Assembly: GCA_022360655.1 (NCBI GenBank)
Contig: JAKSCK010000050.1
Span: 62,001-126,000, forward strand
Origin: Spirochaetales bacterium
GTDB taxonomy: Bacteria; Spirochaetota; Spirochaetia; DSM-2461
Length of the DNA stretch: 64,000 nucleotides
Direction: 5' to 3'
The position numbers and the translations under genes are program-made. The notes beneath the pieces were generated by a model, which was not told the DNA's origin, did not search any database, and saw nothing but the letters and a program-made list of their open reading frames with translations. Shown here piece by piece: positions 24,785-31,601 of the stretch. Positions within the stretch are counted from its first letter, which is position 1, and every line of letters begins with the position of its first letter.

Positions 24785-26644
24785 TTATTTCTTACCAAAA
24801 AGGCGCTGGAAGAATCCCTTCTTCACCGGCTTTTTGTCCTCCACTTTGGGAGGAGCAGGAGCCTTCTGAGCAGGCTGCGGTTTCTGTTTCTTCTGAACAG
24901 GCCCATTATTTCGATGATTCGGCTTGGCATTCCGTTGAGGATTCGAACGCCGTTTGTTTTGGGGTCGCTTTTTCTGAGGAGACTTTTTCCCCGATGGAGA
25001 GGAAGAAACGCCTTCCATCTTGAAATCTTCCCCATACTTTTTACGGTAGTAAGCCAGACGCTCTTCCATACTACTATCCGCACTGATTCGAGCTTCCGTC
25101 ATGCGCTCTTGAGGGCGGGGAACATTGTTGCGCTTGTCCTGCCGGGGTCTTCGTTTCTCATTCCGAGATTGAGGTTTCCGTTCCTGTGAACGTGTGGTGT
25201 TCTCAAAATCATCCAAACTGCCGCCTGCAATGGAGGAAACCGTTGACTGGATCTGCGCCACCCGAGGATCCAAAGGCTTCTTCTTGCGTGAAGGGCCACG
25301 CCGATCCTGTGTTCCCCGTTTGTCCTCAGATTTTTCCTGGCGAGAAGCTTGGGGAGGACGTTTCTCATGGGGAGTCTTTTGTCGATCCCGATTCGAGCTT
25401 CTCTCTCTTTCTCGTCTATCCCGTCCCCGTTGGCCATCGCGCTTATCTTCACCACCCATATCACGGTAACGGTCACGAGGTGCAAAGCGCATCCCTTCGC
25501 TGGAATCTTCCGCAAAGAGTGTTTCTTCCGCCCAGCTCACAGGAATTTTTTGGCCAAGCAATTTTTCAATGGGGCCCAAACCATAGACGTATTCTTCACA
25601 AGCCATGGTCACGGTTTTTCCCTCACGACCAGCACGAGCGGTTCGTCCAATACGGTGAACATAGCTCTCTGCCTCTAAAGGAACATCGTAGTTGATCACC
25701 ATTTCCAAGTCATCAATGTGCAATCCACGTGCGGCCACATCGGTTGCCACAAGGAATTTATGCTTGCCCTTCTTCACATCATCGGTGATGCGGAGACGTT
25801 TGGACTGAGGAAGATCTCCCATAAGGAAAACCACGGAATATCCGTTGACTTCCAACCGCTTGGCCACTTCCCAGGTACTATGACGAGTGTTGGTGAAAAT
25901 CACGGCATTTTCTGGATTATCCCGCTTGAGCAAACCCAAGAGAAGTTTCATCTTCTCATCTTTACCCACATGGTAAAGCTCTTGCGAAACGGTATCGACC
26001 GTCATCTTCTCGGGTTCAATAATCACTTCCCCTGGATCATTCATGTATTCCCAGGCCAGATTTCCAACCCGAGCATTCATGGTGGCACTGAAAAGCAGAG
26101 TATGACGCTCATTGTAGGGACGCATCACTTTTAATATTCGGCGCAGGTCTGGAAGGAACCCCATGTCAAAGAGGCGGTCTGCTTCATCAATCACCAGGAA
26201 TCCAAATTCCTTCATATTGATTTTTCGCTGTTTGGAGAAATCCAGCAAACGCCCCGGTGTTCCAATTAAAACATCCACACCTTGAGCCAGCATTTTTTCC
26301 TGGGCGGCGTACCCAACTCCGCCAAAAATAGCCCCAATCTTGTAGTCCAAGTATTTGGCGAGCTTTTTTCCTTCCCGTTCAATCTGAACAGCCAGTTCCC
26401 GAGTGGGAACAACAATGAGGGCCTTTTGTCCCTTGTATTTTTCTTCTGTTTGTAAGAGTTGAAAAATGCCGAGAAGAAAGGCCGCTGTTTTGCCTGTACC
26501 GGTTTGAGACTGAGCATAAATGTCGCGATGCTCTTTGATGAGTAAGTCGAAGCATTGGGCCTGAACAGGCATGGGAGTTGTAAAACCAGCTTCGTCGATC
26601 CCTTTTTGGATCTTTTCATCGAACCCGAAATCTTGAAATGTCAT
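24785..26644 (-). CDS. DEAD-box RNA helicase with long basic tail
   Basis: 619 residues from ATG 26644 (MTFQDFGFDEKIQKGIDEAG is the family start). Core motifs in order: Q motif MPVQAQ, AQSQTGTGKT, PTRELA, TPGRLLDF, VIDEADRLFDMGF, FSATM, VIFTNT, ATDVAARGLH, HRIGRTARAGREG. It unwinds or remodels RNA with ATP. Residues beyond about 385 form a very long Arg/Lys/Pro/Gln-rich, low-complexity tail ending KKPVKKGFFQRLFGKK, probably disordered and RNA-binding, as in RhlE/CsdA-type helicases of ribosome assembly or cold adaptation. The ribosome site is weak. A small hairpin (GGGCT/AGCCC) lies at about 26667-26681. Confidence 0.93.
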   Translation of the reverse strand: MTFQDFGFDEKIQKGIDEAGFTTPMPVQAQCFDLLIKEHRDIYAQSQTGTGKTAAFLLGIFQLLQTEEKYKGQKALIVVPTRELAVQIEREGKKLAKYLDYKIGAIFGGVGYAAQEKMLAQGVDVLIGTPGRLLDFSKQRKINMKEFGFLVIDEADRLFDMGFLPDLRRILKVMRPYNERHTLLFSATMNARVGNLAWEYMNDPGEVIIEPEKMTVDTVSQELYHVGKDEKMKLLLGLLKRDNPENAVIFTNTRHSTWEVAKRLEVNGYSVVFLMGDLPQSKRLRITDDVKKGKHKFLVATDVAARGLHIDDLEMVINYDVPLEAESYVHRIGRTARAGREGKTVTMACEEYVYGLGPIEKLLGQKIPVSWAEETLFAEDSSEGMRFAPRDRYRDMGGEDKRDGQRGRDRRERERSSNRDRQKTPHEKRPPQASRQEKSEDKRGTQDRRGPSRKKKPLDPRVAQIQSTVSSIAGGSLDDFENTTRSQERKPQSRNEKRRPRQDKRNNVPRPQERMTEARISADSSMEERLAYYRKKYGEDFKMEGVSSSPSGKKSPQKKRPQNKRRSNPQRNAKPNHRNNGPVQKKQKPQPAQKAPAPPKVEDKKPVKKGFFQRLFGKK

Positions 26645-26835
26645 CGTGGATTCAATCCTTGGTGTCGGGGCTACAGAAGCCCTCAGAGTGAGATTTTGCG
26701 CTTTTCGGGGGAATATCCAAAACAAACAATACCAACGGACGCGGCCTCGGAGGAGGAATGCGCCTCTCCGGAATAGATGGATCGGGCCGCGCGGACGAAT
26801 GCATCTCTTGTGCCCCGATAGTTCACTGTAATTTT

Positions 26836-26845
26836 AGTATATACT
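26836..26845. promoter_or_regulatory. AGTATATACT palindrome upstream of the receptor gene
   Basis: A perfect ten-base palindrome 30 bases before the ATG at 26875, in the only AT-rich part of this intergenic stretch. It may be a -10 region or operator. A related longer repeat, TAGTATA/TATACTA, precedes the membrane protein at 35362. The rest of 26645-26835 is GC-rich and holds no gene. Confidence 0.35.
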
Positions 26846-26874
26846 TTATCTTAACTCATGTCGATAGAAGGAAT

Positions 26875-28839
26875 ATGAGTTCTTTAAAGGGGTTTATTTC
26901 TCCCCATACCTTACTCACTCTCCTCCTGTTTTTTCACCTTGTTTTTCCTTCGTTTTCTCAGGAATGGATACTCTTTCCGGCCCAACCCGATTCACGTCCT
27001 TGGACTCTTTTTCACGAACAGAAAGAAGAAGGCCTTGCTTTGCCTCCAGGCCCCCTCCCAGCAGATTGGCAGGATGGAACATACTGGCTCATTGCCCAGA
27101 TTGAGAGAACAGAGGATCAAACTCATCTCTTTCTTCAAGGGCTCCCCATTCACTCCCCCCTTTGGTGGAATTCCAAGGCCATCGGAACACATGAGGCTCC
27201 TGTTGGCCAGATGCCCTCCCCCATCCCTCAGCTTCTTACTTATCCCGATGATTCGTCTTCTGGCCTTTTTATCACCCAGCAATTTCTTTCCGCTCAGTAC
27301 AGCACTCTTCCCCCTCTTCCCGCCTTAATGGAAACACAGGAAGGGATTCAGCAATATGCCATAGCCTTTATCACCCATTTTTTGGTTCCTCTTTTTGGAT
27401 GCCTCGGTGGAATGGGACTCTTCTTTTATGCGCTTCACTTCAGACAGGGACGTAAAGGACGTTACCTTTATCCCGAAGCTGCATACTTTGGTTTGTTTTT
27501 TGCACTCATCTCCCTTCCGGCTCCTCTCGCTGCTTTAGGATTTATTTCTTCGGTCCTTCCGGAATCATTTCCTCTGATTCTTTCCACCCTCGGTTTTCCC
27601 ATCTCCATTCTTTTTTGGCGGCGTATGGTGAGTGGTACTCCCCAGAATCCTGGACTCCAAATCCTCGACATCACAGCCGTGCTTGTGGTGATTCTCTGGA
27701 GCCTTATTCCCATTGTGAATGCACCGATTGAGCTCCGTTCCATCCCCACTTCACTTTTGTTGCCTTGGTATGTGGTGGGCAATGCGGTGTTGGCTGTCCT
27801 TGGGGGAATAGTCATGGTGATGCGTCATCCACGTCGAAAGCACATCACTGCTGCGTTGGGAGCAGCGGCTTTGATTCCAGCCCTTGGATTTCTCCCCTTC
27901 ACCCAAAAACCTTTGCTGGAAGCCTTTAGCACCACACTTTCCAGTTGGGGATTTACCTTGGTGCTTTTTGCCATCATTCCAGCTCTTTCCCACCAATCCC
28001 AACGCCAAAAGCCTGAAGCATCCAAAAAGCCAAACCTTGACTCCATCCCCATTCCTGAGCGAAAACAACCCAAAGAGAGCAAGGTGGAGCCATCTCAAAA
28101 CAGTCCTCAACTGGTGGAATGTCTCCGTTCCACCCTTTACCCTGAGTCCATCCCCTGGGATCCCGACTGGGATCCAGCATCCGCCCGCATGAATGCCCAG
28201 CATCCTTCTACGGGATTTCATGACATGTACTTGGATGAAAATGGACGACTCTTTGGATTTTCTTTCATGGATTCAGGACAATCCACCTTAGAAACCACGG
28301 TCTATGCCCATCTTGTGAAAAGTGAAATTCAACGACGATTCATCCCTGATCTGGACATCCCCCGTTTGTTACGCACTGTTCACCGTCGAACCGTCACCGC
28401 AGCCCTAGCCTCTCACTGCTCTTTGGCAGGACTTTTAGGGCATTTTAAGAATGGTGTGGTGGAATTTGTTCCTTTGGCCCTTCCCCCTGTGCTTCTCCGT
28501 CGGAGTGAGGATGGACGTGTGTCGGCACTTCGGCCGGAAGAAGAGGATCAATCAAATCCAGCTCTGGGCTCTCACGAACTGGCATCTACAGGATTACGCA
28601 CATTTCGGGTGAATATGGCACCTGGCGATGCCTTTGCGGCCTGTGCCCCCCAACTGTTAGAATGCCAATCTCCCTCTGGCAAAAAATGGGGACTGGCTGG
28701 GCTGGCCCGAGCTTTTCGGGAAACATCCTCTGAGCGAGCCGATGGTATGGCTGCAGATATCATTGGTGCTCTCAAGGATTTTATGGGGAGTGATGCCCCG
28801 GAACGACCCTTACAGCTTCTTCTGATTCGACGGCGTTAG
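26875..28839 (+). CDS. 7TM receptor with degenerate SpoIIE/PP2C-like output domain
   Basis: 654 residues from ATG 26875 (AGAAGGA upstream; longer readings lack one). Order: signal peptide (1-28), external domain of about 130 residues resembling 7TMR-DISM extracellular modules, seven helices (about 161-188, 203-225, 232-248, 264-282, 290-316, 324-341, 350-371), Pro/Lys linker, then a SpoIIE-like domain (about 415-654). SpoIIE landmarks are present but altered: GGDFYD is TGFHD (446-450), the DVSGHG segment is MDSGQS (465-470), YTDG after PGD is CAPQ (590-593), and the final DDxT is replaced by PERPL. Normal domains are Mn-dependent serine phosphatases of anti-anti-sigma factors; this one has probably lost catalysis and may bind partners. 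Confidence 0.75.
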   Translation: MSSLKGFISPHTLLTLLLFFHLVFPSFSQEWILFPAQPDSRPWTLFHEQKEEGLALPPGPLPADWQDGTYWLIAQIERTEDQTHLFLQGLPIHSPLWWNSKAIGTHEAPVGQMPSPIPQLLTYPDDSSSGLFITQQFLSAQYSTLPPLPALMETQEGIQQYAIAFITHFLVPLFGCLGGMGLFFYALHFRQGRKGRYLYPEAAYFGLFFALISLPAPLAALGFISSVLPESFPLILSTLGFPISILFWRRMVSGTPQNPGLQILDITAVLVVILWSLIPIVNAPIELRSIPTSLLLPWYVVGNAVLAVLGGIVMVMRHPRRKHITAALGAAALIPALGFLPFTQKPLLEAFSTTLSSWGFTLVLFAIIPALSHQSQRQKPEASKKPNLDSIPIPERKQPKESKVEPSQNSPQLVECLRSTLYPESIPWDPDWDPASARMNAQHPSTGFHDMYLDENGRLFGFSFMDSGQSTLETTVYAHLVKSEIQRRFIPDLDIPRLLRTVHRRTVTAALASHCSLAGLLGHFKNGVVEFVPLALPPVLLRRSEDGRVSALRPEEEDQSNPALGSHELASTGLRTFRVNMAPGDAFAACAPQLLECQSPSGKKWGLAGLARAFRETSSERADGMAADIIGALKDFMGSDAPERPLQLLLIRRR

Positions 28840-28864: not shown

Positions 28865-30130
28865 TTACCGCCAGCGGTCTTCACGAACATCATCCAGAGT
28901 TCGCGCAAATCGTCTCTGACGATAAACCTCAGCAATGGCAGCGGACAATTCCTTGCCATTCCGCCCAGGAGCCACAGCCTCAGCCTGATCACAGCCTTCA
29001 GCCACAAGGGATGAAACAAAAGATTCGCGATGAACTTCAGCTCCAGGAGCGCTCACAGCCACAAGATCAACGGCCCGCCCTTGTTGAGCCAAAGATGAAA
29101 AGGAACACTCTTGTGGATTTCGCACCGAAATCACCTGAATGGAAAAACCCTCTTTCTGTAGCCATTCTGAGGCCTTCACCGCCTCACGAGCCATTGTTCC
29201 TGGAACAATGAGAAGAATGGAACCGGACTCTCCAGAGCCTCCTTTCTTCACAGAAACCATGCTCTCAACGGCCCATGATGATTTGAGAGAAGCTCGAGAA
29301 GAAAGCCCATTGAGGGGTAAAACAATGCAAAGAGGGCCCTGAAGCGTGAGGGAAAAATCAAGAGCTCCCAAGACATCATCCATGGATGCAGGTGTGAGCA
29401 CCTGGGATGAATCAAGTACATTGAAAGGTTGGACAGCCTCCCAACCCCGGCAAAGAAGAATGAGCTTACGCCGATTCAAAAGCCCCGCATCAATGGCCTG
29501 GGCAAAAATCCAGGCCTGAGTCCGCTTCACTGATACAACGGGAATGCAACCAAGATCAGAGGCAGCCCGAGCGGCAAAAACCTGTTGCTGAACATCCTCG
29601 GATTCTCCCAAATCTACATAAGAGGGTTGCCCATCCAACCATTGAACCAGTTCCACATCGGAAATCAAACTGGTGGAGCAAGAAGAAAAGGCCGGAAGTG
29701 CATCCAGTTGAATTTTTTGCTGATCCTCAAAAACTCCATCCCCTTTCAATGCTTTCTTTGGGTCTGGATTTTGAACAATCAAGCACTGCGGTTTTCTGGT
29801 GAATTTCTCAAGAAATTGAAGAAAGGGGGATTTATTCAGTTGAAGAGATGGGGGAACACTCTGATGCTCCTGAAGAATCAATCGGTAGAGTCTCCGATTT
29901 TGCCCCGCTCCCCCCTTGGACACAGAATCCCAGAGAACATCATCAAAGGGATGCATCTCATCTGTGATGCAGAAGACACGTCCACCACGTCCTGCAACCG
30001 TCCCTTTTGTTTGAATTTTCCAATCCTGCTTCCCAAAATGGGGAGACCAAAGAACACGATCAGCACTCTCTACGTTTTCATTCAATTGCTTCAGAAACTG
30101 TTCCACAATCCCTCCCATGGCTGGGTTCAT
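28865..30130 (-). CDS. Transketolase/DXS-like protein lacking the diphosphate-binding domain
   Basis: 421 residues. Residues 170-275 resemble the pyrimidine-binding domain of DXS/transketolase: YVDLGESEDVQQ (E178 matches the catalytic glutamate that activates thiamine), GCIPVVSVKRTQAWIFAQAID, LTPASMDDVLGALDFSL, GPLCIVLPLNG. Residues 300-395 resemble the C-terminal domain (SILLIVPGTMAREAVKASEW). The preceding 160 residues do not look like a diphosphate-binding domain, and the His-containing loop after RGW is shortened. It may be non-catalytic or need a partner chain. The relationship is by pattern only, hence moderate confidence. It follows the small basic protein gene, beyond two terminators. 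Confidence 0.45.
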   Translation of the reverse strand: MNPAMGGIVEQFLKQLNENVESADRVLWSPHFGKQDWKIQTKGTVAGRGGRVFCITDEMHPFDDVLWDSVSKGGAGQNRRLYRLILQEHQSVPPSLQLNKSPFLQFLEKFTRKPQCLIVQNPDPKKALKGDGVFEDQQKIQLDALPAFSSCSTSLISDVELVQWLDGQPSYVDLGESEDVQQQVFAARAASDLGCIPVVSVKRTQAWIFAQAIDAGLLNRRKLILLCRGWEAVQPFNVLDSSQVLTPASMDDVLGALDFSLTLQGPLCIVLPLNGLSSRASLKSSWAVESMVSVKKGGSGESGSILLIVPGTMAREAVKASEWLQKEGFSIQVISVRNPQECSFSSLAQQGRAVDLVAVSAPGAEVHRESFVSSLVAEGCDQAEAVAPGRNGKELSAAIAEVYRQRRFARTLDDVREDRWR

Positions 30131-30457: not shown

Positions 30458-31432
30458 TCAGAGATTTTCGTTCAAAAACTTCTGAACCGTTTCCTTCATA
30501 CCAGAAGGCCCTTGAATCTCCATCTCTGGATGAAACCAATGCACATCCGGAAGAGAAGAAAAAAAGGTGATTTGCCTTTTGGCATAACGGCGGCTATTTC
30601 GTGCAATCAGGTTTTGAACCTGTTCAAGTTCCGGCTCCCTACCATCTTCAGAGGGAAACCACTCCTGATATCCAATGGCCTTCATACCTGGATGCTCCGG
30701 TCTTGCACCACCAGCACGAAGCTCTGCTACCTCATGGGCCAATCCGGCCTTCATCATGGCATCAACCCGCTGATCAATGCGTTGATAAAGCTCTTCTCGT
30801 TCCCGACGCAATCCAAGGGAAAGAATGGGATAATCCTGGCGCGGTGTATTGGGCACATCAAAGGATGAAAGGGCTTTACCCGTTTGCTCATGCACTTCTA
30901 AGGCACGAAGAAGCCGGTATCGGTCCCTCCGTCCAATCCGCTGGGCACTCACCTCATCCACCTGAAAGAGAGCCTCTCGGATGGCATCTTCATCCTGATG
31001 AATCCACCGTTCCTCCACCCGTTGACGAATCAGGGGATCTGAAGGAGGTGTTTGAGGAAGACCCATCAACCAGGCCTTGAAATAAAACGCCGTCCCTCCA
31101 GAAAGAACCGGAAGATTCCCCCGAGAATGAATCTCTTGAATGCACTCTTGGGTCCGATCGCAAAAATCACCGGCACTAAAACTTTGAGTGTAATCAAGAA
31201 TATCAATGAGATGATGAGGAATCCGCTGGAGAAGGGATGGGGAGGGTTTTGCTGTGCCAATATCCAGCCCCTTGTAGACTTGAAGGGCATCAGCACTGAT
31301 GATTTCCGCTTCTTGAGAAAACATTTCCTCAAGAAGCGCTGTTTTTCCAACTCCCGTGGGACCGAACAAAAGAACGATGCCCCGAGTGTCTTTAGTCCTG
31401 CTTGAGATCGTACTGAACCTCTTCGGTGACAA
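30458..31432 (-). CDS. miaA: tRNA dimethylallyltransferase
   Basis: Transfers a dimethylallyl group to A37 of tRNAs reading U-initial codons. Motifs: P-loop GPTGVGKT, SADALQVYKGLDIGTAKP (usual DSMQVY), IPHHLIDI, FSAGDF, LSGGTAFYFKAWLMGLP, and RDRYRLLRALEV. The start is uncertain: no ATG precedes the P-loop, so I use the TTG at 31432, inside the end of rpoZ; a TTG at 31456 is an alternative. Either gives a 40-65 base overlap with rpoZ and suggests coupled translation. The C-terminal tRNA-binding part (IARNSRRYAKRQITFF) is complete. Confidence 0.92.
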   Translation of the reverse strand: MSPKRFSTISSRTKDTRGIVLLFGPTGVGKTALLEEMFSQEAEIISADALQVYKGLDIGTAKPSPSLLQRIPHHLIDILDYTQSFSAGDFCDRTQECIQEIHSRGNLPVLSGGTAFYFKAWLMGLPQTPPSDPLIRQRVEERWIHQDEDAIREALFQVDEVSAQRIGRRDRYRLLRALEVHEQTGKALSSFDVPNTPRQDYPILSLGLRREREELYQRIDQRVDAMMKAGLAHEVAELRAGGARPEHPGMKAIGYQEWFPSEDGREPELEQVQNLIARNSRRYAKRQITFFSSLPDVHWFHPEMEIQGPSGMKETVQKFLNENL

Positions 31433-31601
31433 TTTCCTTGATGGCCAAAGAAACAATCTTACCGCCAGCGGATTCTAAATCTTCCGAACCGGCAATGCTG
31501 ATTTGCTTGGCACGATGGATGGCCGCATTGGTCAATTCGTACATGTTCTTATCGGTGGACACCAAATTCCCGATGGGAATGCTGGAGACTTTTTTCGCCA
31601 T
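31392..31601 (-). CDS. rpoZ: RNA polymerase omega subunit
   Basis: 69 residues from ATG 31601. The stretch NMYELTNAAIHRAKQISIAG with SLAIKEIVTEEV is the omega pattern (helix with R-A-x-Q and the conserved A-I-x-E-I). Omega helps assemble beta' into RNA polymerase. The ribosome site is GAGGCGG. A TATAAT lies at 31637-31632, about 30 bases upstream. miaA starts within its 3' end. Confidence 0.85.
   Translation of the reverse strand: MAKKVSSIPIGNLVSTDKNMYELTNAAIHRAKQISIAGSEDLESAGGKIVSLAIKEIVTEEVQYDLKQD

Follow-up and report, generated by a model that had tools for sequence, protein, structure and literature searches.

Does a spirochaete receptor whose SpoIIE-type phosphatase domain has lost most of its metal ligands still take part in signaling, and if so, in what capacity? 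The question is raised by a gene in a 64,000-nucleotide stretch of DNA (the window) from the genome of an uncultured spirochaete, assembled in 273 contigs. An initial annotation had described its product as a seven-transmembrane receptor with a SpoIIE domain that had lost acidic metal ligands, and had suggested that it might bind an anti-sigma partner rather than dephosphorylate it. The boundaries given there, 26875-28839, are correct, with an open frame running uninterrupted from an ATG at 26875 to a TAG at 28837-28839 and encoding 654 residues. Four congeneric orthologues share 25-34% identity and the same synteny with this protein, and in the public record orthologues are found in Spirochaeta sp. 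MAGs, a Spirochaetaceae MAG and the Olavius algarvensis spirochete endosymbiont. The full-length AlphaFold model comprises an N-terminal helix, a β-rich outer region, seven long helices and a C-terminal α/β domain, with low confidence outside the last of these (Table 1).

Table 1. Features of the receptor gene and its neighbors (window coordinates; residue numbers in parentheses)
Feature	Coordinates	Strand	Basis
Coding sequence (654 aa) of a membrane protein ending in a degenerate SpoIIE/PPM domain	26875..28839	+	open frame, orthologues, synteny
Predicted signal peptide (1-28)	26875..26958	+	hydrophobic N-terminus, model helix 10-26
Putative extracytoplasmic β-rich domain (~29-152)	26959..27330	+	low-confidence model strands; profile match to canonical 7TMR-DISM/SpoIIE N-terminus
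Seven predicted membrane helices (~154-377)	27334..28005	+	low-confidence model; hydropathy scan
Proline-rich linker without coiled coil (~376-410)	28000..28104	+	6 prolines in 35 residues
SpoIIE/PPM-fold domain (411-654)	28105..28836	+	Pfam PF07228, 24.4 bits; Foldseek to Rv1364c RsbU domain, E 1.3e-9
Ligand motif 1: SGD-x-YD to STGFHD (445-450), ligand D to G447	28207..28224	+	alignment, profile
Ligand motif 2: DVSGHG to MDSGQS (465-470), D466 retained	28267..28284	+	alignment, profile
Ligand motif 3: YTDG to CAPQ (590-593), ligand D to P592; orthologues YTP	28642..28653	+	alignment, profile
Ligand motif 4: DDLT to RPLQ (644-647), Q647 invariant	28804..28815	+	alignment
DEAD-box RNA helicase, divergently transcribed, syntenic marker	24785..26725	-	Pfam DEAD/Helicase_C; same neighbor family-wide
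Relic of 1-deoxyxylulose-5-phosphate synthase (DXS), syntenic marker	28865..30130	-	weak Transketolase_C only; full-length DXS here in sister genera
Gene presumed to be miaA, syntenic marker	30458..31456	-	recurrent neighbor

To establish the affinities of the C-terminal domain we compared it with profiles and structures of the SpoIIE/PPM fold. The Pfam SpoIIE profile (PF07228) gives a borderline score with the window protein, 24.4 bits in hmmscan (cut-off 25) and 27.6 bits in a genome search, and it matches 5/5 of the orthologues. The domain modeled alone reaches a pLDDT of 78 and a pTM of 0.76, and Foldseek searches with the predicted fold recovered the RsbU domain of Rv1364c, SiaA, RsbX, SpoIIE and RssB with E values of 1e-9 to 1e-6, while profile searches of PDB sequences recovered no match. 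These profile matches and the predicted structure place the domain in the SpoIIE/PPM fold family PF07228. With the full-length model, the PPM domain was the sole region matched among the Foldseek matches listed, the outer domain being unmatched. The Pfam 7TMR-DISM_7TM profile detects the canonical relatives but neither the window protein nor its orthologues. Profile-profile comparison with hhalign aligned the outer domain and first helices with those of canonical 7TMR-DISM/SpoIIE receptors (probability 94.9%, E 4.8e-8, 216 columns, with the later helices uncovered). The protein displays the 7TMR-DISM layout, namely seven helices (residues 154-377 in the low-confidence model) following an outer domain homologous to that of known members, and the receptor-plus-SpoIIE layout recognized at the outset is upheld. 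NCBIfam contains no family for the window protein, and no relative was found in viral contigs.

Aligned with some 40 related SpoIIE domains, the motifs of the window protein fall naturally on the SGD-x-YD, DVSGHG, YTDG and DDLT motifs of the canonical members. Three of these four are acid-free (STG, CAPQ and RP), and the aspartate of the second, D466, stays. The aspartate of the first motif is a further metal ligand in the PPM family. Against a profile of canonical members the window copy has G, D and P at ligand columns 1 to 3, with the last column unaligned; in two orthologues that column is occupied by V-P. The four congeners display the motifs [AS][TS]GFH[DE], MDxG and YTP, followed by xPLQ or FSLQ, and G447, D466, P592 and Q647 are invariant across the five congeneric proteins. 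The replacing residues G447, P592 and Q647 are conserved in relatives, as the initial annotation had proposed to look for, and the sequence motifs that it quoted (MDSGQS, PGD at 583-585, CAPQ and SPSGKKWG) are all present; its claim of ligand loss holds for three motifs and has to be restricted to these, the ligand of the second having been kept. Further, 16 of the 52 invariant domain columns covered by the canonical profile differ from the residue held by at least 60% of the canonical relatives, and these include the D-to-G and D-to-P changes at two ligand columns where the canonical relatives are 100% D.

An alternative alignment that recovers the acidic ligands, which had been named as the finding that would overturn the proposal, was sought and rejected: the invariant acidic residues of the domain in the five orthologues are D429, D466, E484 and D585 only, and D466 alone occupies a ligand position. 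Chance or a frameshift as the cause of the degenerate motifs was likewise rejected, on the strength of the open frames and the dN/dS values given below. The ligand loss is neither misalignment nor gene decay. The set of four aspartate motifs binding two metals that defines an active SpoIIE/PPM phosphatase is lacking in all five species alike, and from the chemistry of this loss we infer that the domain would not catalyze the reaction. The retention of D466 counts against a pseudophosphatase. It also bears on the possibility that the protein has kept enzymatic activity, at an active site that was rebuilt or binds one metal and draws on D466, D429, E484, D585 and H449: both D466 and H449 are invariant and lie near the old site in sequence, and the domain is under strong purifying selection. 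However, both of the other single-aspartate ligands have become G and P, the last pair is gone, and the replacements vary between genera, unlike what is expected of one new active site; we regard a surviving enzyme as very improbable.

Within the protein, conservation is highest in the SpoIIE domain, which is under purifying selection. Among the five orthologues, invariant columns number 57 of 244 in this domain, 15 of 210 in the membrane part and 11 of 137 in the outer region. For the closest congener pair (G024/G023), dN/dS is 0.157 across the domain, compared with 0.212 for the remainder of the protein, and pairs from the other genera have domain values of 0.128, 0.120 and 0.080, with dS near saturation in some of these pairs. 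This conservation, together with the low dN/dS, argues that the domain is not functionless, and we consider it very likely that the protein is both catalytically inactive and functional.

In 15 genomes from three genera the gene occupies the interval between the DEAD-box helicase gene on one side and DXS, or its relic, with miaA on the other: five complete copies and one cut by a contig end in the genus of the window (g1), and copies in 6/6 genomes of a second genus (g3) and 3/3 genomes of a third (g4). All 14 readable copies have a degenerate SpoIIE domain and none has the canonical ligand set. A comparison of the motifs shows that: 1) In g3 the third motif takes the forms VSCS, VSAS, VSSS or TSRS and the remaining motifs are unrecognizable, motifs 1, 2 and 4 having been read from a low-identity alignment. 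2) In g4 the motifs are RRDFFDF or QRELFDF; FQ, FE or FDTPEE; CNDV, CNEV or CNET; and E[AS]D, so that several ligand positions are D-to-E changes, which makes loss of activity less certain in this genus. Judged from these alignments, ligands have been lost from three of four motifs in g1, apparently from all in g3 and partially in g4, and each genus is degenerate in its own way at the locus. The gene is missing from this locus in two congeners (G019 and G021) and in four g5 genomes (L079, L080, L087, L088, L090 and L091), where the helicase gene directly adjoins the DXS relic or DXS. These absences are what would be expected of a pseudogene on its way out, but 14 complete copies have intact frames, the domain dN/dS is 0.08-0.16 and the gene has been kept across three genera, making such decay hardly conceivable.

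Two further observations concern the neighborhood. A segment of about 70 bases immediately upstream (26796-26871) is 87-90% conserved with three congeners and 83% in G020, and adjoins the poorly conserved N-terminus. It contains a sigma-70-like promoter directed at the helicase gene (TCGACA-17-TATACT), and the receptor start codon lies about 10 bases beyond the -35 box of this promoter, such that the helicase and receptor genes may share control. On the other side, the DXS relic (28865-30130, minus strand) encodes 421 residues with a weak Transketolase_C match only, while sister genera have a full-length DXS at the same place. The DXS N-terminal domain is found above transketolase level in 0/9 genomes of the window's genus (best E 7e-13) and in 17/17 other family genomes (E ≤ 2.4e-109), and HMG-CoA reductase is present in 9/9 genomes of the window's genus versus 0/17 of the others. 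This pattern points to a genus-wide swap of the MEP pathway for the mevalonate pathway, with a DXS fragment retained.

Sampling of 70 other SpoIIE domains in the family recovered 54 with all ligands, 10 with all readable ligands and 6 with D-to-E changes only. Five of the best 24 relatives, proteins of the 7TMR-SpoIIE type (L037, L039, L041, L042 and L046), have separately lost at least one ligand, and these alignments show ligand loss to be a repeated event among receptors of this type. Also conserved in the family are two SpoIIE proteins in tandem, each about 700 residues long (L002, L013, L137, L142, L138 and L177). The second protein of the pair has a D-to-E change at the DVAGKG ligand (EVAGKG, EVAGRG or EVEEKG), and in one genome motif 1 has a D-to-E change as well.

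The segment linking the last helix to the domain offers a second point of departure from the active receptors. All 13 canonical relatives examined have here a proline-free linker of coiled-coil appearance, 19-56 residues long (in one case the short length reflects the small number of helices detected by the scan). Four of the five g1 proteins have 3-6 prolines in the linker, the window protein having six in 35 residues. The equivalent linker of RsbU forms a coiled coil, through which the phosphatase dimerises and is switched on (PMC12143880). The g1 proteins lack both the ligands, in three of four motifs, and the coiled-coil transmission linker, while g3 and g4 keep longer helical linkers. Neither the loss of the coiled-coil linker nor the family-wide syntenic depth of the degenerate domain figured in the initial annotation. 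The linker bears on the suggestion that the protein forms dimers with an active SpoIIE paralogue in its own cell and so tunes the activity of that paralogue. RsbU and SpoIIE are established cases of PPM domains regulated through dimerisation (PMC12143880), and the same genome encodes four canonical SpoIIE proteins; yet the dimer-making linker is gone in the window's genus and the gene has no linkage to those paralogues, and we hold a dimer regulator to be rather improbable.

With regard to origin, the membrane part of the g3 proteins matches that of the canonical 7TMR-DISM/SpoIIE receptors (89%, E 2.3e-6), and profile comparison detected no relation of the g4 membrane part to the other locus proteins. 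A quick tree of the domains united all the locus proteins (SH-aLRT 87) inside the 7TMR-SpoIIE clade (95*), with a warning of long branches. A more careful tree joined g1 and g4 (90/94) and left g3 apart on a very long branch; a single clade of locus proteins was not rejected by the AU test (p 0.32), and with g4 removed from the tree, g1 and g3 stay separate. As the trees do not settle the origin, synteny is the main argument that the locus proteins of the three genera have one origin. The ancestor would have been a receptor of the 7TMR-DISM class whose SpoIIE-type PPM phosphatase was active, and of this phosphatase the fold would have been kept and the metal site lost.

We propose that the protein is a membrane-anchored pseudophosphatase that signals by binding, perhaps to a candidate STAS anti-anti-sigma protein, a reading that we favor with some reserve; that it works by protein binding of some kind is, taken separately, likely. 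The outer and seven-helix part would sense a signal or anchor the protein, and the former substrate face would keep a cytoplasmic client bound at the membrane. As client, the phospho-STAS anti-anti-sigma protein dephosphorylated by the active paralogues would be the likeliest, in which case the partner switch would face competition from the receptor or be titrated by it. A single strong STAS match was detected in the genome, on contig C84; it has a DSSG phosphorylation motif, and its neighbors are two HATPase-type kinases and a small protein resembling PilZ. This count is a lower bound, the search having left out PF13466 (STAS_2). Phospho-STAS being the natural substrate of SpoIIE/RsbU phosphatases, we put this protein forward as the best candidate client. 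The region around it (L182, G000:C84:8000-13000) appears to be a conserved module encoding, in order, a kinase of 181 residues, the STAS protein of 112 residues (DSSG), a protein of 108 residues that we presume, by eye, to be PilZ-like and a kinase of 174 residues. Many genomes of the family contain paired HATPase hits comparable in size and spacing, and in G003 and G006 such a pair is found about 27 kb from the pseudophosphatase gene, on one contig with it. No partner-switching genes (STAS or HATPase kinase) were found beside the receptor gene, its neighbors being the helicase, the DXS relic and miaA, with the STAS and kinase genes on another contig, and none of the orthologues has an operon partner. 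As a lone gene between two opposite-strand genes, its operon context indicates no client, which counts against the favored reading. A STAS protein or kinase as the partner is a possibility that we would rate somewhat below even, and the client and the direction of control are offered purely as a hypothesis.

The precedent of RssB, in which a dead PPM domain serves as an adaptor, makes a sigma factor or another client possible. Such an adaptor would bind a sigma factor or other protease substrate, with the receptor controlling whether this client is delivered or is sequestered at the membrane. RssB, whose PPM domain is inactive, acts as adaptor for sigma-S (PMC5468089, PMC12143880), and its domains (3f79 and 3f7a) are among the Foldseek matches, but RsbU, SiaA, RsbX and SpoIIE outrank it there, the window protein is membrane-bound and of different architecture, with no REC domain, and degradation machinery is absent nearby; an adaptor of this type strikes us as unlikely.

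Several known systems resemble the binding receptor that we favor. The active 7TMR-DISM/SpoIIE receptors of spirochaetes (e.g. L098 of G017) share with the window protein the signal peptide, outer β domain, seven TM helices and C-terminal SpoIIE fold, and its domain nests with theirs in the tree; they keep, however, all the ligands and a proline-free coiled-coil linker of about 50 residues, and the window protein has neither. RsbU, SpoIIE, SiaA, RsbX and Rv1364c share the fold (Foldseek E 1e-9 to 1e-7), an LxP motif at the domain start and the DVSGHG-type aspartate, but they are active partner-switch phosphatases, while the window protein is acid-free at three of four metal-ligand motifs. RssB of E. 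coli is likewise a PPM fold without phosphatase function that evolved from an active phosphatase (PMC5468089, PMC12143880), and by alignment, profile and Foldseek the window protein too is a PPM fold lacking catalytic ligands. RssB is nevertheless cytoplasmic, REC-regulated and gammaproteobacterial, in contrast to a membrane receptor of another phylum and another origin, and a Pfam scan found no RssB-type N-terminal receiver domain in the window protein. The eukaryotic PP2C pseudophosphatases TAB1 and PHLPP2 have lost metal ligands but still fold as phosphatases and serve in binding (PMC5468089; PMC12002173); the binding role is in our case a proposal, and their origin and architecture are unrelated. 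In the literature searched, bacterial pseudo-PPM domains are represented by RssB (PMC5468089, PMC12143880), and we found no open-access paper on bacterial receptor-borne SpoIIE pseudophosphatases. The pseudo-PPM protein as a kind is already known; what is new, within the scope of these searches, is the receptor architecture, the phylum and the depth of the synteny.

In its fullest form, our proposal is of a lineage of receptor-borne pseudophosphatases, kept vertically at one locus in at least three spirochaete genera, that captures phospho-STAS at the membrane instead of dephosphorylating it, a picture that we advance tentatively and regard as doubtful in its entirety. If true, it would be a second, unrelated and membrane-bound case of a pseudo-PPM protein, present in many genomes and with active relatives in the same cells, and the SpoIIE fold would have been reused for binding in sensory receptors. 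Counts of SpoIIE proteins would then overstate the number of phosphatases, and the active relatives, the D-to-E paralogues and the complete loss in three genera would form a natural series in which the passage from phosphatase to scaffold may be tested.
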